37,253 nt of DNA from Acidobacteriota bacterium. GTDB taxonomy: Bacteria; Acidobacteriota; Terriglobia; Acidiferrales; UBA7541. Made by a program: the position numbers and the translations under genes. This document shows, piece after piece, positions 23,455-30,368 of this stretch (positions are counted from its first letter, which is position 1; each line of letters begins with the position of its first letter). The notes beneath the pieces were generated by a model. That model was not told where the DNA came from, ran no database searches, and saw only the letters and a program-made list of their open reading frames with translations. Location: assembly GCA_003224525.1 (NCBI GenBank), contig QHZB01000228.1:1-37253 (forward strand). The letters are read 5' to 3'.

Positions 23455-23919
23455 TTATTTCTTCACGCGATCCTTGAGCAGATTCTTCAGCTCGCTCATG
23501 AACTCCTGCACATCCTTGAAGTCCATGTACACCGATGCAAATCGCACGTAGGCGACCTTATCCAGCTTCTTGAGACGGTGCATGATCATTTCGCCGATTT
23601 CGGTGGTGGTAAGCTCGCGTTCCGTGGCCTCGTGCACCACGCTTTCGATTTCATCCACGATGGCTTCCAGCTTGGGGGTGGCCACGGGACGTTTTTCGCA
23701 CGCTTTCAAAAGTCCCTGCAAAATCTTTTGCCGCTCGAAGCGTTCGCGCCGCCCGTCCTTCTTGATGACCATGTACGGAATTTCGTCGATGCGTTCGTAG
23801 GTTGTGAACCGGCGGCCGCACTTCAGGCACTCGCGCCGCCTGCGAATGGTGTCGCCGAGGCGGCCCTCCCGCGAATCGATCACTTTGTCGTCGATGTTCG
23901 CGCAAAAAGGACACTTCAC
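23455..23919 (-). CDS. nrdR: Transcriptional repressor NrdR
   Basis: 154 aa, full length. It has an N-terminal zinc ribbon (CPFC at 3-6 and CLKCGRRFTTYER from about 31) and the ATP-cone domain (VIKKDGRRERFERQKILQGL). NrdR senses ATP/dATP and represses ribonucleotide reductase genes. The GTG start overlaps the stop of the flippase-like gene (GTGA), so the two are translationally coupled. No ribonucleotide reductase gene or NrdR box pair is in the window. Confidence 0.97.
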   Translation of the reverse strand: MKCPFCANIDDKVIDSREGRLGDTIRRRRECLKCGRRFTTYERIDEIPYMVIKKDGRRERFERQKILQGLLKACEKRPVATPKLEAIVDEIESVVHEATERELTTTEIGEMIMHRLKKLDKVAYVRFASVYMDFKDVQEFMSELKNLLKDRVKK

Positions 23920-25010
23920 TTGGCTGAGCCTCCTTGCTGTGCGGCGCCTTCGATTGCCGCTTCTTTTTCGAGCTCGGCCATCTCCTTCAGTTTCCCGAGC
24001 GAAAGCCCTTCGTGAATCAGCAGCGGCACCCCTGCAAGACTAACCGCCGCGAACGTAATCAGCCAAATCACGATGGATGCGGCAAGAGCTGCCTCAGATT
24101 TTATTAGAAAGATCTTTGTATACGCACCAAACGACCCTGCTTGGGAACCACCACCGACGCCAGGCAACTGCAATATTGAGCTCACCAGCGTAACTGCCAG
24201 CACTAGCATGGCGTCGAAAAGGCTTAGGTTGCCAAGGGTACCGCCAAAACTCTTCGCCACCCAAAGATAAATGACCAGCACAAGAAACCAATGGGCTGCA
24301 GAATAAAACAGCGCTAGGGCCAAATCACGTCCGCTCCGGATGGTTTGCACGCCGCGTGCAGTCTCAAGCACAATTCCCGCGATCTTGCTGCGCCAGCCGT
24401 GCGCCTGCAGCCAACCTTGCAGTTGCCTCTCGAGCAGCGCCGTGCCGCGAAAACGCAGATACACCAGCAACGCAGTTGCAGTCAGGATTCCCAGGACGAG
24501 AAATAGTGACGCGGGCTTCGCTGTTTTCTCCAAGGCTCGAGCGGTTTCGCTGCTTTGAGCGTCCGTTCGAAATCCCAGGAGCGCGACCGTCGCGATTACG
24601 GCCATGCTCGCAAAATCGAAAATCCTCTCCAGTAAATAAACTCCGAACATGCCGGACACTTGCAACTTCTCTTTTCGCGCCAGCAGAAATGGCCGCACCG
24701 GCTCACCCGGCCGCCCCAACAATTGCAGCGCGGAAAATCCCGCAAGAGTCATCTTGTAAATATTCCAGAAACTCGAGGGCCCCAGGTTTTCTTGAAACAC
24801 TTTCCAGCGAAGGGCGCGCAGTGCATAACACGCGTAAATCGCCACGAGGGAAAGTATCAGATAGTAGGGATTGGCACTGCGGACCGCTTGCAACATCTCC
24901 GTGCCGCTGAAATCAGAATGATGGATCATCCCGCTCGAGCGGTAGATGACAAATCCCAGCACGAGCAGCCCGATCAGGACGACAAGAAGCTTCCTCGACG
25001 ATGATTGCAT
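23916..25010 (-). CDS. UPF0104 / LPG-synthase-TM-type flippase-like membrane protein
   Basis: 364 aa with about eight hydrophobic segments. It shows family features: an N-terminal segment KLLVVLIGLLVLGFVIY, ALRALRWKVFQ, LGRPGEPVRPFLLARKEKL (the GRxGExxRPxLL motif), ERIFDFASMAV, and LQLPGVGGGSQAGSFGAY near the end. This family includes the membrane domain of MprF and proteins linked to polyprenyl-sugar or lipid handling. The cargo is unknown. First gene of a flippase-nrdR-M28 unit. Confidence 0.88.
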   Translation of the reverse strand: MQSSSRKLLVVLIGLLVLGFVIYRSSGMIHHSDFSGTEMLQAVRSANPYYLILSLVAIYACYALRALRWKVFQENLGPSSFWNIYKMTLAGFSALQLLGRPGEPVRPFLLARKEKLQVSGMFGVYLLERIFDFASMAVIATVALLGFRTDAQSSETARALEKTAKPASLFLVLGILTATALLVYLRFRGTALLERQLQGWLQAHGWRSKIAGIVLETARGVQTIRSGRDLALALFYSAAHWFLVLVIYLWVAKSFGGTLGNLSLFDAMLVLAVTLVSSILQLPGVGGGSQAGSFGAYTKIFLIKSEAALAASIVIWLITFAAVSLAGVPLLIHEGLSLGKLKEMAELEKEAAIEGAAQQGGSAK

Positions 25011-25044
25011 GTGCTGGCCAGCCTAGCGGGACCAGCCATCGCCG

Positions 25045-25416
25045 TCAAGGCATGCGAATAACATTCGTCAGGAAATTTCGGAGCAAGGCGGCCACACGAG
25101 CGCGCACTTGCTCTAGAATCGATCGCGGGATTTTTCCGGCTTTCTGGGCTTGCCGCTAGCGCCAATCAGGGTTTTTCAAATGGTCGCAAAGAATCGCACC
25201 TCGGATGCGCGACCCCGCAGGGAGGCCCACTTCGAAGGGATACCCCTTCACAAGGCTCGTGACCGGACAGACAACCGCAAGACTCGTCTTCTCGTTGTGG
25301 CTCCGGGGCGAAAGAACCACAGCAGGCCGGCGCCCCGCCTATTCCCTGCCAGCTTGCGGCGTAAAATCGAGCCAGATCAAATCGCCGGCATCAGGCACAT
25401 ACTCGCGGGCTACCAC
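25045..25416 (-). pseudogene. mazF-type toxin interrupted by two in-frame TAG codons
   Basis: One frame of 124 codons, the normal length for MazF/PemK, from GTG 25416 to TGA 25045. It reads REYVPDAGDLIWLDFTPQA then GRE-TAG-AGRRPAVVLSPRS, then KTSLAVVCPVTSLVKGYPFE, RGAILCDHLKNPDWR-TAG-RQAQKAGK and ILEQVRARVAALL. The two stops are at 25341-25339 and 25158-25156. The first falls where Gln is usual (a single CAG to TAG change). The frame is otherwise unbroken. MazF toxins are mRNA interferases. As read with the standard code only about 25 residues would be made. See the antitoxin entry for a third TAG. Confidence 0.8.
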
Positions 25417-25653
25417 AGTTCTTTGCCTTCTCCGGGCGCCCCAATCCGTTTCCGTGTGGAGATTTGCCGCAGTGATCTCCCGAACGAGATCTCTAAGTTT
25501 TGAAGTTCCTTTTTTCTTGCGAATCCTCACTGTCCCCGAACCTTCGACGGACAACTCCAGATGATCGCCAGGACGAAGCTTGGCAGCCTCCGCCACGTTC
25601 TTGGGAATCCGCACGGCCATGCGATTGCCCCATTTTGCGACCTATGGCTTCAC
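25410..25653 (-). pseudogene. mazE-type AbrB antitoxin with an early TAG and a 1-nt frameshift
   Basis: From GTG 25653: VKP-TAG-VAKWGNRMAVRIPKN, then ...KLRPGDHLELSVEGSG and LRDLVREITAANLHTETDWG. The swapped-hairpin AbrB domain is intact, but the early TAG (25644-25642) stands where family members usually have Gln (compare MKxQVAKWGNSLAVRIPK). Translation could restart at ATG 25620, making a 93 aa product. Past DWG, adding one base in the C run near 25435 would give GKELW and a stop overlapping the mazF start, as in intact operons. Without it the frame runs straight on into mazF, giving an unnatural antitoxin-toxin N-terminal fusion that ends at the first mazF TAG. Confidence 0.75.
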
Positions 25654-25704
25654 GACGCGCCGCCCCTTGTAGATACAAACGTATACAAGCAAGGCGCACC
25701 CATG

Positions 25705-27039
25705 TCACTTCGCCAGCTTGACCGCCATCCGGTCGGCGGATTCCTCGCCGGTGCGCAGGGCGCCTTCACTGGAGAGGCCGTCGAGATAGTCGCCGCACAG
25801 GTCAAACGGGAAATCCCAAGCCGCGAGGCGTTTGCGCAGCGCAGTCATTTCGCGCAGTCTCCCGGGCGGAAACTGGGCGATGCCGATATTCCATCGTACG
25901 AGATGCACAAAAAGCACCTTGCCGCGGCATTCCGGGAAGGTCTGCTCCACAATTTCGCATGCTTGCTGCTTAACGGATTCATCGTTGGCGTCCAAGCGGC
26001 AGAACTCCGGCGTGTTCCACAGGAAGACGCCCGCCATACCTGCGCCTTCGGGACAGCGGTTGGGAGCGCGCAGGTGCTCCATTTCGATTTCCGCGCCGGG
26101 TACAACATCCGGTGTGAAGGCGTACCCGGCGTAAGGAACACTCGGCGGATTCGAGAGCGCTACCGCCGCGTTGGCAATCCTCGAATACTGCGTTCGGGAG
26201 AGCAGCTCGCGAAGATCTGCAGGAAGTTGTGGGCAAAGCTCCGGCACAAGCTGTCCTGGAATCGCGAAAATGACCGCGCGCGCTCTAAGAGTTTGTTGCT
26301 TGCCTTTAACCTCCGCTTCAACCTGAACGCCTTTCGGGCGCTGCTCGACATGCAGAACCCGAGCTTCCGTCACGACACGCACCTGGGAAGCCATAGTTTC
26401 CGGAATGCGATCGACGCCATCCGCAAGAGTCCATTGCCCACGCACGAGCAGGTTCCAGATCACTTGCATCAGGATTACGCGCGAAGAGGTTTCGACCGAT
26501 CCGCCAACGGGCCCATTCAACCCCGGCCGGAAGATGCGCTCGAATACTTCTTCCCCGCCGATGCGGCGGAAATACGTCCGCGCGTCTTCGCCGTCGAGCG
26601 AACCAGTGAGAATGCTGCGGCCATGGACGAGAGCGCGATGATGACGCAACAGGTCGAATCCGAATCGCAGGCAGGCGACGCGGGTACGCAAAGATATTCC
26701 GCGGTCAAAGAGCAGGTCCTCGAACCGCCCGCTGCGATAACCTCGGCAACCCGCGGCGTCTTGAATGCCCACACTGAAACTTCCTGTGCCGACTAGCGGC
26801 GACAATCCCAAGCGGCGCACGAGCGAGCGCATGCGCACAAAGCCATTTCCCAGCAACGTGACACCGCGATCGATCACAAATCCGTTGACCCGATCGGTGG
26901 TCATCCGGCCGCCTACGCGGGACTCCGCCTCCAGCACCAGCGGCTCCAGGCCGCGGTCCTTCAGCCGGAGAGCCGCAGCAACTCCGGCAATCCCTCCGCC
27001 AATCACGATTACGTCGGCGTCTCCGCTCTGGGTCCCCAT
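25705..27039 (-). CDS. FAD-dependent amine oxidase/phytoene desaturase-like oxidoreductase
   Basis: 444 aa flavoprotein. It begins with the dinucleotide-binding motif DVIVIGGGIAGVAAALRL (residues 9-26), then the second motif LEAESRVGGRMTTDRV, in which R and GGR contact FAD, and VIFAIPGQLVPEL in the middle. The C-terminal FAD motif is GDYLDGLSSEGALRTGE, the usual closing pattern of this superfamily. HpnE, CrtI and protoporphyrinogen oxidase share this fold, and the substrate is not determined. AAGGAG precedes ATG 27039. It lies 11 bp after the methyltransferase gene, in one unit with the TetR gene. Confidence 0.88.
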   Translation of the reverse strand: MGTQSGDADVIVIGGGIAGVAAALRLKDRGLEPLVLEAESRVGGRMTTDRVNGFVIDRGVTLLGNGFVRMRSLVRRLGLSPLVGTGSFSVGIQDAAGCRGYRSGRFEDLLFDRGISLRTRVACLRFGFDLLRHHRALVHGRSILTGSLDGEDARTYFRRIGGEEVFERIFRPGLNGPVGGSVETSSRVILMQVIWNLLVRGQWTLADGVDRIPETMASQVRVVTEARVLHVEQRPKGVQVEAEVKGKQQTLRARAVIFAIPGQLVPELCPQLPADLRELLSRTQYSRIANAAVALSNPPSVPYAGYAFTPDVVPGAEIEMEHLRAPNRCPEGAGMAGVFLWNTPEFCRLDANDESVKQQACEIVEQTFPECRGKVLFVHLVRWNIGIAQFPPGRLREMTALRKRLAAWDFPFDLCGDYLDGLSSEGALRTGEESADRMAVKLAK

Positions 27040-27050
27040 CAGGATTCTCC

Positions 27051-27884
27051 TTAGCGGCGCGTCCCGGCGAAGAGATCGACGGCCTGAGTGCTGCGCGCGT
27101 ACTTCACGTCATCAAAACGTTCGCGCAAGAACTTGTCCCAATCCTGGCGCTTGGTCACGTGATGAATCACCGGGCCGAAGATCACGTAGTTGTGCGCGTC
27201 CCACCCGTGTTCGAAGAGAAGTACCTTTCCTCCCGGCCTCAAGATGCGGTTCGCTTCGCTGAACAATTTTTCTCGCGCACCGCCCGTGGGAATTTCGTGC
27301 GTCCCGAACCCAAAACAGACCGCATCGCAGGAGGCATCCGGCAGCGGCAACGTGAAATGGTCCGCCTTATAGGCGACGATGCGCGGGTTGCTTGTGGGAG
27401 GCGCTTCCAGGTCGCGCACGTCCTGCACGGCTTCTTCGGGCGACTCGCCTTCCACGTTCCAGCAATCCACGGTTTGAATGGTGGCTTCCGGCAGCACGTC
27501 AGAGAGCAGGAAGGCGTGGCGGTACGTTCCGATGTGCAGGTCCGCGACGGTCACTTTGCCCTTTAGACTGCCCAATTCCACCAACCGGCGTACGTAGCGA
27601 GCTCCCGGATGACCGTACATGCGATACAAACCGAACAGTGAGTAGGCCAGAAGCAGCAATCCGATTTCTGCGAGTGCCACGGACGCCCAAAATGCCAGCG
27701 GCAGACGAAACATAACTCCAATGGCACCAAGCGGAATTCCAACCGCGAGAAAATATTTTGTAATTTTCCAGTAGTCGCGGCGGCTGACATACACGGCGCG
27801 TCCCCAATACCACCATGGCGTCGGCCGCTTCGCGGCGACTGATGCGGGATACCAGTGTGTGACGGCTTCGTGTGACTTGGTCAT
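27051..27884 (-). CDS. Membrane-anchored class I methyltransferase-like protein
   Basis: 277 aa. Residues about 40-92 form two hydrophobic segments (YFLAVGIPLGAIGVMF and FWASVALAEIGLLLLAYSLF). The C-terminal half is a methyltransferase-type domain: VTVADLHIGTYRHAFLL, QTVDCWNVEG, YKADHFTLPLPDASCDAVC and RILRPGGKVLLFEHGW. Motif I reads ADLHIGT instead of the usual (D/E)xGxGxG, so SAM binding may be altered. GAGGAGG precedes ATG 27884. It is probably co-transcribed with TetR and the FAD oxidoreductase, suggesting modification of a hydrophobic small molecule at the membrane (inference). Confidence 0.82.
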   Translation of the reverse strand: MTKSHEAVTHWYPASVAAKRPTPWWYWGRAVYVSRRDYWKITKYFLAVGIPLGAIGVMFRLPLAFWASVALAEIGLLLLAYSLFGLYRMYGHPGARYVRRLVELGSLKGKVTVADLHIGTYRHAFLLSDVLPEATIQTVDCWNVEGESPEEAVQDVRDLEAPPTSNPRIVAYKADHFTLPLPDASCDAVCFGFGTHEIPTGGAREKLFSEANRILRPGGKVLLFEHGWDAHNYVIFGPVIHHVTKRQDWDKFLRERFDDVKYARSTQAVDLFAGTRR

Positions 27885-27940: not shown

Positions 27941-28627
27941 TTAGGTTCCTCCGGTCCAGCCTGCCTCACGCAGCATTCCCAGAATCTTTCTCTGGAAGGG
28001 CTGAACGAAAGGCCGCACTAGCGCCGAACGCGTCAACTCTATTAACTGAGTAAACAGATCTAATATTCCGTCTGCCAGCTTGTGGGTTCTCTGCTGCCCT
28101 TCCGTTTCGTCGTAGATGAAGAACAGGATCATGCCGAGATGCGCCAACCAGAGTGCCCACGGAAGAAGTTCCTGCAGTTCTTCGCTCACGTTGGTGCCCG
28201 CAACAGCTTCCTGGAAAATCGCAACGCTCTGGCTGCGCTGCGCGTCTGTGCCTTTCCCAAATACTGACAGCGGATGGTCCGGATCGCCGGTGTAGCGGAA
28301 CAAGGCCCCCAGAAACATGCGGTCATCCTTCAAGATTTCCAATTTCGAATGCACCGCCACTCCCAAGCGCTCGCGGAGTCCGGCCTTCCCGCTCAGCTCT
28401 AGGCGAACTTTCTCCGCATGCCGGCGCTGCACCTGGTCGTAGTAAGCCGCGACGATGGATTCCTTGCTCGGGAAGTAGTAGTAGGCAGCGCCGGTGGCTA
28501 CCTTGGCGGACCGTGCGATGTCGCGCATGGTGGTGACTTCAAAACCGCGCATGCGGAAGAGTTCCAGCGCCTTTTCGAAAATCACCGCCTTGGTTTTTTC
28601 GCCGGCGCTCTTGTTTGCTGTGCTCAT
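27941..28627 (-). CDS. TetR-family transcriptional regulator
   Basis: 228 aa. The N-terminal helix-turn-helix is typical: KTKAVIFEKALELFRMRGF, TTMRDIARSAKVATGAAYYY, FPSKESIVAAYYDQVQ. The C-terminal part is a ligand-binding helical domain (WALWLAHLGMILFFIYDETEG). It is the first gene of the TetR-methyltransferase-oxidoreductase unit. Its upstream region holds two copies of a perfect palindrome that frame the predicted promoter, so it very likely represses itself and the two enzyme genes until a ligand binds. Confidence 0.93.
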   Translation of the reverse strand: MSTANKSAGEKTKAVIFEKALELFRMRGFEVTTMRDIARSAKVATGAAYYYFPSKESIVAAYYDQVQRRHAEKVRLELSGKAGLRERLGVAVHSKLEILKDDRMFLGALFRYTGDPDHPLSVFGKGTDAQRSQSVAIFQEAVAGTNVSEELQELLPWALWLAHLGMILFFIYDETEGQQRTHKLADGILDLFTQLIELTRSALVRPFVQPFQRKILGMLREAGWTGGT

Positions 28628-28642
28628 AACGTTGGCCCGATA

Positions 28643-28656
28643 TTGAACATGTTCAA
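28643..28656. promoter_or_regulatory. Operator copy 1 for the TetR regulator (palindrome)
   Basis: TTGAACATGTTCAA, a perfect 14-bp palindrome, directly abuts the -10 hexamer of the TetR promoter and covers the expected transcription start. Shares TGAACATGTTCA with the second copy 50 bp away (centre to centre). Confidence 0.72.
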
Positions 28657-28685
28657 ATGCTAAACCAAACCCAGCTCCGAGTCAA
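28657..28685 (-). promoter_or_regulatory. Predicted promoter of the TetR operon
   Basis: On the minus strand TTGACT (28685-28680) and TAGCAT (28662-28657) are separated by 17 bp (5/6 and 4/6 matches). It lies exactly between the two palindromes, 30 bp upstream of the ATG, so the leader would be about 23 nt. Confidence 0.6.
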
Positions 28686-28693
28686 GTAGAAAA

Positions 28694-28705
28694 TGAACAT
28701 GTTCA
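28694..28705. promoter_or_regulatory. Operator copy 2 for the TetR regulator (palindrome)
   Basis: TGAACATGTTCA, a perfect 12-bp palindrome, lies 8 bp upstream of the -35 hexamer on the minus strand. Next to it on the plus strand is TATAAT (28724-28729), with no good -35 hexamer. Confidence 0.7.
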
Positions 28706-29077
28706 ATAAGTCTCTATACTATTTATAATCTGTTACTTACGAACATTTCGAGGAGTATGGTTTCGACCCGGCAACAGCCGTGATCCCTGGAACTGAAGTC
28801 TGCCCAGCAAGAATAGCCTGCGAGTTCAGAAAATCGTACGTCGATTTGAAGCCAGCGCCCGCGTACCTCATTGATTCCCTTGTCTCTAGGGAACTTGCTC
28901 CAGTAAGATGCCGGTTATAACGGTCGGGAATCATGGGCTGATCCCGCGGGGAACATTTCGAGAGCATTTTACGTTCCATAGTTGGCAGGCCGAGATGGAC
29001 TGCCAGACGGCTTTTGAGAGAGAAGCCGACTCGCAGACACGCCTTGCACCGCAGCAGGTTATGAGGCTGACGATACG
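28706..29077. other. Intergenic region between the TetR operon and the ECF sigma gene
   Basis: No convincing gene. It holds the ECF-type promoter candidate at 28949-28975 and two exact copies of GAACATTTCGAG at 28741-28752 and 28951-28962, 210 bp apart; the second forms part of that promoter. Confidence 0.5.
28949..28975 (+). promoter_or_regulatory. Candidate ECF-type promoter upstream of the sigma factor gene
   Basis: GGGAAC (28949-28954), a 17-bp spacer, then CGTT (28972-28975). GGGAAC...CGTT/CGTC is the usual form of ECF sigma promoters. It lies about 100 bp before the sigma gene start on the same strand, as expected if the sigma factor transcribes its own operon. Confidence 0.45.
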
Positions 29078-29647
29078 TTGGAGCAGGATGCCCAACTGGT
29101 CCAGCAATGCCTCCAGGGCGACGGGTCGGCCTGGGAGGAACTTGTGCGTCGCCATACCAGGCGCATCTTTAACATCTGCTACCGCTTCACCGGAAACCGA
29201 ACGGAATCCGAGGACCTGTCGCAAGATGTTTTCCTCCGCGTGTACCGTACGTTGGGCAGTTATCGTTCGGCCCATGGCGGTTTCGCAACTTGGATGACCA
29301 GCGTGACGCGCAATCTATTGATTGACCATTACCGTAGAACGAAGCGCGATCGCATTACCGACTCGCTGGACGACAAGATGCCGATGGTGGAGAACAAGGA
29401 ATCGGCGGGACGTCGGCCGGATGAGCAGGCGCTGCTCGGCGAATTGAGCGGCCAGGTGCAATCAGCGCTGACGCGGCTTTCGCCGGAATTGCGCGAGGCG
29501 GTGATCCTGCGCGACCTGCAGCAATTGGAGTACAGCGAGATTCAGCAAGTTTTGGCGGTACCGGAAGGAACGGTAAAATCACGAATCAATCGCGGACGCA
29601 TCGAACTGGCGCGCGTTCTGCAGCAGATGGGAGTGCGCCCGTCATGA
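29078..29647 (+). CDS. ECF (sigma-70 family) RNA polymerase sigma factor
   Basis: 189 aa. Region 2 shows EELVRRHTRRIFNICYRFTG, SEDLSQDVFLRVYRTL and GFATWMTSVTRNLLIDHYRR; region 4 has RLSPELREAVILRDLQQLEY and EIQQVLAVPEGTVKSRINRG. The first plausible start is TTG 29078; the frame is open only from 29018 and has no ATG or GTG before this. It is first in an operon with a zinc-finger anti-sigma gene 38 bp downstream and three envelope-type genes, which fits control of cell-envelope stress (inference). Confidence 0.93.
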   Translation: MEQDAQLVQQCLQGDGSAWEELVRRHTRRIFNICYRFTGNRTESEDLSQDVFLRVYRTLGSYRSAHGGFATWMTSVTRNLLIDHYRRTKRDRITDSLDDKMPMVENKESAGRRPDEQALLGELSGQVQSALTRLSPELREAVILRDLQQLEYSEIQQVLAVPEGTVKSRINRGRIELARVLQQMGVRPS

Positions 29648-29684: not shown

Positions 29685-30368
29685 ATGAACTGGAACTGCG
29701 AACAAACCGAAGCGCGGCTGAGCGATTACCTGGACGGACTTCTTCATCCCGGAGAGCAAGCCGCTTTCGACTTCCATGTGAACGCGTGCGAGCGTTGCAC
29801 TCCGCTGGTCGCCGGTGTTTCCCGTGTTCTCGGCACTCTGCACTCCTTGGCGCAGGTTGAACCACGGCCGCAACTTTTCGACTCGATTCTGACGGCGACT
29901 CTCGGCCCGCAGAGCTGGCGCAGCGCGAAGCGCTGGCTGCGCGGGCTGCGGTCGCCTCGTTTTGTGTACAGCGCGGTCTCCGTTGCCGCGACTTTCTTCG
30001 TCATTCTTACGGCCTCTGGTTTCTCGTTTCGCAAGCCGAAGCTGGCGGATCTTAATCCCGCCACGATTTATCGCAAGACGAACAGCCAGGTGCATCTCGT
30101 TTATGCGCACAGCGCCAAGTTCGTCAGCGATCTGCGCGTGGTTTATGAAATTCAAACGCGCCTGAACGAAAACGAACAGAATCCCACTACCAGGGAGCAA
30201 ACCATTCCGCAGAATTCTCCCGGCAAACAACCCGGCCGCACCGACAGCACGAATCCGTCCGCGCCCAAACAGCAGAACCGTGCCGACCAAATCGGCAGGA
30301 ATTTGCGGGTTCTGGCTTCGCAATTCCCCGTTCTGAGCGGATCGATTGGTGAGAGGAGAAGGTCATGA
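29685..30368 (+). CDS. Zinc-finger (zf-HC2) anti-sigma factor, membrane-anchored
   Basis: 227 aa. The N-terminal anti-sigma zinc finger reads MNWNCEQTEARLSDYLDG followed by FHVNACERC, the HxxxCxxC zinc motif (about 31-38) of ZAS-type anti-sigma factors. One transmembrane segment lies at about 94-113 (VYSAVSVAATFFVILTASGF), with a polar Gln/Asn-rich tail outside. It should hold the upstream ECF sigma at the membrane until a signal releases it. Its stop overlaps the start of the next gene (ATGA). Confidence 0.9.
   Translation: MNWNCEQTEARLSDYLDGLLHPGEQAAFDFHVNACERCTPLVAGVSRVLGTLHSLAQVEPRPQLFDSILTATLGPQSWRSAKRWLRGLRSPRFVYSAVSVAATFFVILTASGFSFRKPKLADLNPATIYRKTNSQVHLVYAHSAKFVSDLRVVYEIQTRLNENEQNPTTREQTIPQNSPGKQPGRTDSTNPSAPKQQNRADQIGRNLRVLASQFPVLSGSIGERRRS

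Follow-up and report, generated by a model that had tools for sequence, protein, structure and literature searches.

The window, the whole stretch of 37,253 nucleotides that was analyzed, carries a tetR gene on its minus strand, followed by a methyltransferase gene and an FAD oxidoreductase gene, with two short palindromes, OL and OR, upstream (Table 1). Read on the minus strand, the order is TTGAACATGTTCAT-tttctac-TTGACT-(17)-TAGCAT-TTGAACATGTTCAA, the centers of OL and OR are 50 bp apart, and tetR lies directly downstream, which confirmed from the letters what the initial annotation had described. The palindrome of OR is exact over all 14 bp (28643-28656), and that of OL is exact over 12 bp (28694-28705) inside its 14-bp frame. 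TTGACT-17-TAGCAT was the sole consensus promoter match between positions 25000 and 29100 and agrees with the consensus at 9 of 12 positions; as 1.2 such matches are expected by chance, the promoter call rests on the comparison between species described below. A hairpin or terminator reading of the palindromes was ruled out, as they are without a loop, and a terminator scan of the same interval gave 5 matches against 5.2 expected, none of them at the palindromes.

Table 1. Features of the tetR region, in positions of the window
Feature	Coordinates	Strand	Remarks
Predicted upstream operator OL	28693..28706	-	TTGAACATGTTCAT, read toward tetR; 7 bp above -35; predicted at about -56 to -43
-35 hexamer TTGACT	28680..28685	-	Promoter scan; TTGAC at the same place in relatives
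-10 hexamer TAGCAT	28657..28662	-	17-bp spacer; promoter scan and comparison with relatives
Predicted downstream operator OR	28643..28656	-	TTGAACATGTTCAA; abuts -10; predicted at -6 to +8
Predicted leaderless 8-codon ORF	28624..28650	-	MFNIGPTL, stop; opens at the OR-center ATG
tetR	27941..28627	-	228 aa; PF00440 and PF17931 (TetR_C_23); recognition residues R35 and T45
Class I methyltransferase	27051..27884	-	Carries a UbiE-like domain; presumed second operon gene
FAD-dependent oxidoreductase	25705..27039	-	Amino_oxidase PF01593; third gene of the presumed operon
Flippase-like membrane protein	23916..25010	-	PF03706/TIGR00374; behind the FAD gene in relatives

The tetR product matched the N-terminal helix-turn-helix family PF00440 (TetR_N) at 57.7 bits (cut-off 24) and the C-terminal TetR-type domain PF17931 at 41.5 bits (cut-off 29.1). 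An AlphaFold2 model of the protein, built from 29 sequences, had a mean pLDDT of 91.2. The closest PDB chain by sequence was 3c07, a TetR-family regulator of Streptomyces coelicolor (2.5e-40), and the same chain was the best fold match of the model (Z 25.2, rmsd 2.2, 212 residues aligned). The probable locus tag of 3c07, SCO4850, turned up only in two transcriptome papers among the open-licence papers searched. The next fold matches included QacR, FadR, COQ9, and KstR entries with Z of about 14-16.5; human COQ9 reached a Z of up to 16.0, level with QacR and FadR. By both its TetR_N and its helical C-terminal domain, the window protein is a member of the TetR/AcrR family.

The genes of the presumed operon, tetR, methyltransferase, and FAD oxidoreductase, share one orientation and are separated by gaps of 56 bp and then 11 bp. 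Gene clustering found a methyltransferase homologue behind tetR in six related loci (L015, L017, L018, L020, L021, and L022) and an FAD-gene homologue in the same six and in L019. This conserved order backs the operon that had been predicted from the window alone, and membership of the TetR family suggests that a ligand would control it. The FAD oxidoreductase resembles HpnE and protoporphyrinogen oxidase below cut-off. Whether the flippase-like gene is co-transcribed is uncertain because 694 bp separate it from the FAD gene. This interval (25011-25704) is 70-73% identical to the corresponding one in L018 and L019, whereas L015, L017, and L021 have just a short gap at this place; in the window, its operon strand is free of ORFs that reach 100 aa. 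Elsewhere, the genes near tetR encode PEMT/isoprenylcysteine-methyltransferase-like proteins, TIGR01777 (YfcH) oxidoreductases, and DoxX-like and DUF4166 proteins. As the genes behind tetR differ among relatives, the switch is retained while its cargo varies. Divergent from tetR, the window also encodes an ECF sigma factor and a zinc-finger anti-sigma-type protein (29078-29647 and 29685-30368). Divergent control of the sigma gene was unsupported, as it starts 372 bp beyond OL and the upstream neighbor varies among relatives.

The rarity of the palindrome was then analyzed. Exact TGAACATGTTCA occurs twice in the window, compared with 0.00 expected from 100 dinucleotide shuffles. With up to two mismatches allowed, the count stayed at 2 (1.04 expected), a number that 26 of the 100 shuffles also reached, so it is the exactness of the palindromes that is striking. 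In the whole genome (6,474,271 bases, 98.15% complete), the only two exact copies are those of the window pair. The initial annotation had itself named a common genomic repeat as grounds for refutation; the repeat reading was rejected, both copies being at the tetR promoter. Places with one mismatch to TGAACATGTTCA numbered 12 genome-wide, whereas the reversed control pattern, with one mismatch allowed, gave 1. A looser 14-bp consensus with one mismatch gave 51 places against 48 for its control, which is background.

Judged by the exact sites, the regulon would thus consist of the tetR operon alone. A wider regulon was considered and rejected: a one-mismatch site in C434, about 100 bp before a response-regulator gene, has no twin. 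Two further one-mismatch genome places, L006 and L009, were inspected. Extra single sites in three other genomes (G028, G027, and G023) had no common target except for a place beside rnhB in two relatives. There, a perfect single 14-bp site has an rnhB-like gene, identified by eye, and a TPR-like gene as neighbors (L157:1501-1514 and L185:1501-1514), possibly a second target.

A footprint of the sites was sought at 36 loci, the window and 35 of 80 homologous loci. Nine of an earlier set of 43 loci (L038, L040, L041, L043, L044, L046, L047, L050, and L056) were excluded from the gene-clustering and footprint sets, and L032 was added. Twin sites, each with at most 2 mismatches to TTGAMCNNGKTCAA and 49-53 bp apart, were present at 20 of the 36 loci, with TetR identities from 86% down to 37% (the lowest in L052). 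The other 16 had no twin pair. Among these, L026 has one site at the usual place and an upstream site overlapping -35, and L053, L055, L061, L065, and L067 have a single site; the remaining ten showed no site within 260 bp upstream, where L032 has almost no upstream DNA and L035 has 213 bp.

Furthermore, genomes were scanned blindly with a DNA pattern for the pair, free of any protein information and with the reversed pattern as a control. The strict pattern matched in 18 of 399 class genomes, and the control matched in 0; the T at the end of its OL kept the window itself from matching. A second, wider pattern, with centers 34-64 bp apart, matched in 11 of 396 phylum genomes against 0 for the control. 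Its matches covered 12 places, of which the window was one, and although 34-64 bp was allowed, every distance fell within 49-62 bp. Leaving out the window and duplicates, the two scans gave 25 places, and L129 and L133 among them had also been found by homology. At 21 of the 25, a TetR with the reading head of this subfamily followed on the same strand no more than 1.2 kb downstream, and further DNA placed the tetR start of L142 at +1433, bringing the total to 22.

The three remaining places, L125, L146, and L147, have twin sites and no TetR in the DNA examined (about 10 kb for L146 and L147). The L125 site precedes a gene for a 159-aa protein without a family match, followed by a TIGR01777 gene; as the same genome has a subfamily TetR elsewhere, with two tandem sites, control in trans may apply. 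TetR relatives also occur elsewhere in the genomes of L146 (one, in G567) and L147 (two). No site was found in the DNA examined for the G567 TetR, and the L147 twin sites may be due to chance. At the group-B places examined, an unannotated small membrane protein often comes first, and tetR follows as the second or third gene. Such a protein comes first behind the twin sites in L126 (1551-2000), L122, L123, L127, L135, L137, and L140-L142, and that of L126 had no Pfam or NCBIfam match.

The operator letters were compared with the residues of the reading head in 39 loci in which the head is readable. All 13 loci whose sites have a GACC/GGTC half carry Q at the position of R35 and K at that of T45, whereas all 26 loci without this half keep R35 and have no K at T45. 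According to a table in the available part of PMC2723105, R35 and T45 align without gaps to Arg28 and Gln38 of TetR. According to PMC7102968, no side chains other than these two form hydrogen bonds with bases of the tet operator. In the 55-row tree, the Q/K reading head has a single origin (support 100/100). Several independent changes were therefore rejected, and the joint change of operator and head counts as one event, not 13; even so, it links this protein to these boxes. A second tetR copy was observed in L106 (G029:C239, 1-690), with one operator containing an in-frame central ATG and a head short of about a dozen residues (GAAYYDQVQ); this copy is perhaps a decaying or non-binding paralogue.

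Binding of the palindromes by the window TetR is suggested by the footprint and by this joint change. Given the rarity of the palindrome in the genome, the convergence of the blind scans on one TetR subfamily, and the joint change, the two palindromes are very probably the adjacent TetR's own operators, in agreement with the initial annotation.

The position of the sites relative to the promoter was measured in 43 distinct loci (the window, 17 found by homology, and 25 found blindly). L031 and L045, which duplicate L133 and L129, were left out, as were L026 (upstream site overlapping -35) and L053 (no pair). The set was restricted to loci with TTG[AG]C or TTGCA 4-14 nt after OL, and under this condition OL lay 6-9 nt above -35 in all 43 (a distance of 7 in 27, 8 in 10, 6 in 5, and 9 in 1). 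TTGAC was likewise found 6-8 nt below OL at 18 of 18 strict-scan places, where no TTG condition was imposed; at the seven new places of the wider scan, TTGAC lies at this distance below OL at 6, and the seventh has TTGGC. With -10 chosen by a simple score that favors a 17-nt spacer, OR abuts -10 (-2 to +1) in 28 of the 43 loci and lies 3-11 nt below it in the other 15. The placement first noted in the window, with OR covering the predicted start site and OL just above -35, was thus supported across loci. The spacing between OL and OR was 49 bp in 3 loci, 50 in 14, 51 in 5, 52 in 2, 53 in 7, 54 in 5, 55 in 3, 56 in 3, and 62 in 1.

A predicted start codon in the center of OR, absent from the initial annotation, is a new observation here. 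In the window, the A of this ATG is the predicted +1 (28650), and the TGA of the short ORF that it opens overlaps the tetR ATG as ATGA; no Shine-Dalgarno-like string was found before the tetR ATG. A TetR is present at 26 of the OR-abutting loci, and in the 55-row tree these 26 coincide with a single supported clade (98/96). In 25 of them, ATG or GTG stands at the OR center, no more than 2 nt from the predicted +1, and in 21 of them the frame of this codon runs into TetR (MFK, MFN, MVK, or VFK). The window, L018, L019, and L021 instead have an ORF of 7-8 codons whose stop overlaps the tetR start at +23 (ATGA or TAATG). The exception is L022, with ACG at the OR center and AAAGGAG before a later ATG. 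Outside the 43 loci, L099 has the leader-ORF arrangement of the window, and L026 has an OR-center start in frame with TetR.

A start-like codon occupied the OR center in 26 of the 28 OR-abutting loci compared with 2 of the 15 others. At the OL center, ATG, GTG, or TTG was present in 17 of the 28 (Fisher p = 0.0095 against the 26 at OR, uncorrected for kinship); as OL too is often start-like, the pooled excess at OR is only moderate. The contrast is plain between these two groups of loci and also inside the GACC clade, where the OR center is ATG in 13 of 13 loci and the OL center in 2 of 13 (ATG, GTG, or TTG in 6 of 13). A start behind a Shine-Dalgarno-like string was found in 13 of the 15 other loci but in only 5 of the 28. 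Three of these five (L017, L020, and L132) have an in-frame ATG at +1 as well; the other two are L022 and the leader-ORF locus L021, which has AGGA before its tetR ATG. Among the 15 other loci, 4 had an open start no more than 2 nt from the predicted +1, and all four were TTG. In Actinomycetota, L053-L066 (mostly Microbacterium) have a single box with an in-frame ATG in 14 of 14 loci, or 14 of the 20 actinobacterial loci examined, and the box lies next to a TATTCT/TAGTCT-like string. The other actinobacterial loci comprise L036, L043, L044, and L050 without a box, L047 with two boxes and no open start, and L067 with TTG in the box and a frame that stops.

Three other explanations were weighed against these data. 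It is very improbable that the palindromes bind another regulator, such as a LexA- or KstR-like protein, beside which the TetR is an incidental neighbor. The GAAC/GTTC arms of the LexA boxes of some phyla recall the window palindromes, but LexA arms are 4 bp apart, compared with 2 in the window. The 14-mer also fits the KstR core TnnAACnnGTTnnA given in the available part of PMC1995591; however, the KstR model NF033703 scores the window TetR at 34.7 against a cut-off of 280, and one pair of exact sites in the genome is unlike an SOS or lipid regulon. The same-strand subfamily TetR at 22 of the 25 blind places and the change of its reading-head residues with the site further argue against another regulator. 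Improbable, too, is a reading in which the spacing itself is conserved so that a pair of TetR dimers can make contact or fold the 50-bp promoter into a small loop. The initial annotation had seen a nearly ideal layout for cooperative repression or for a small loop, and sites are indeed kept as pairs in many species, exactly 50 bp apart in 14 of the 43 loci. A 50-bp DNA loop is stiff, however, and no helically phased, conserved spacing of the kind expected of a loop repressor was found: over the 43 loci, the distance ranges across 49-62 bp, more than one helical turn, and shifts as OR moves relative to -10, whereas OL stays at -35. Moreover, the actinobacterial L053-L066 have a single site, and L154 has two tandem sites 14 bp apart. 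The looping claim was thus not borne out, and two blocks fixed to the promoter fit the variation in spacing better than a phased loop.

The OR-center ATG, in turn, could be a by-product of an operator centered on AT, with tetR read from its annotated ATG behind an ordinary leader. We consider this unlikely, even though an AT palindrome center easily yields ATG, OL carries the same ATG in 11 of the 28 OR-abutting loci, and the OR frame of the window stops after 8 codons. Against a by-product stand the contrast between OR and OL in the GACC clade (ATG in 13 of 13 against 2 of 13) and the frames, of which 21 of 26 enter TetR and 4 of the remaining 5 stop on the tetR start. The window ATG is also without the Shine-Dalgarno-like string that 13 of the 15 other-group loci have, and the frame is kept in all 14 of L053-L066.

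The sites, their anchoring on the promoter, the link to a TetR subfamily, the joint change of operator and head, and the in-frame ATG are all results of sequence comparison. On these grounds, we consider it likely that the window encodes an autorepressing TetR of the PF17931 subfamily, with OL and OR as promoter-anchored road-blocks and OR also holding a leaderless translation start. One TetR dimer would bind each palindrome, and TetR would repress its own tetR-methyltransferase-FAD oxidoreductase operon. Bound at OR, over the predicted start site beside -10, it would block RNA polymerase binding or escape; bound at OL, about 7 bp above -35, it would occlude the upstream (UP-element/alpha-CTD) side. 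The two sites would act as promoter-anchored road-blocks, not as loop ends, and some ligand would release them. With the central ATG of OR located at the predicted +1, a leaderless mRNA is probable. As this ATG is the tetR start in most relatives of the clade, the operator would there encode the N-terminus of the repressor (MFK/MFN/MVK). The window tetR itself is probably translated by termination-reinitiation, since the stop of the 8-codon leader overlaps its ATG.

A broader proposal, which we judge to be evenly poised, is that one 14-bp sequence serves as operator, transcription start, and leaderless start codon, so that the first codons of the repressor are dictated by its own site. Through small indels, gp2-type acidobacteria would switch between an N-terminal extension of TetR and a 7-8-codon leader, coupled through ATGA or TAATG, that sets the repressor dose, and the overlay would extend over Acidobacteriota and Actinomycetota.

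No described operator for this TetR subfamily was found in the open-licence literature searched, and predicted operators, reading-head residues, and a probable +1 are now given for it. The overlay of operator and start codon and the leader switching were not found in open-licence literature either, although absence there is weak evidence. The design is simple, in that one short sequence would set repression, transcription start, and translation start. The natural pairing of GAAC with R35 versus GACC with Q35 and K45 would offer a ready specificity swap, and the repressor dose is predicted to be tunable by a leaderless leader ORF that starts inside the operator.

Precedents exist both for TetR autorepressors that use palindromic operators and for repressor genes on leaderless mRNAs. 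In the available part of PMC3017554, AcuR of Rhodobacter sphaeroides (acuR-acuI-dddL) is described as a TetR-family repressor whose gene, as in the window, is first in the operon. It represses its own operon from an operator that overlaps the promoter, and its mRNA is leaderless from the acuR AUG by 5' RACE, with no Shine-Dalgarno sequence; the same text names Tn1721 tetR and lambda cI as repressor genes on leaderless mRNAs. The AcuR operator described there is one inverted repeat, TAATAGAC-n6-GTCTATTA, whereas the window has two 14-mers flanking the promoter, and AcuR is leaderless by experiment, the window by prediction. While the acuR mRNA starts at the regulator's AUG, the window ATG at the predicted +1 opens the 8-codon ORF and not tetR, and the window TetR scored 28.1 bits against the AcuR equivalog NF051457, below its cut-off of 247. 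KstR of Mycobacterium is a TetR-family self-repressor whose 14-bp core is matched letter by letter by TTGAACATGTTCAA, and its fold (5fmp) is similar to that of the window TetR model (Z 15.5, rmsd 3.7, 181 residues aligned). It governs a large lipid regulon, with 16 and 31 other motif instances in the available part of PMC1995591, whereas the window has one operon by exact sites; the window therefore shares the operator core of KstR but neither its NF033703 score nor its many genome sites. The 5'-terminal uORFs of Escherichia coli have an AUG at or near the 5' end, and the 8-aa ORF of rhaB ends in an ATGA overlap as in the window; their downstream genes are led by a Shine-Dalgarno sequence, and the available part of PMC4965119 describes no operator at the uORF start. 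The arrangement found in the window is ordinary in kind, and its layout is unusually clean.
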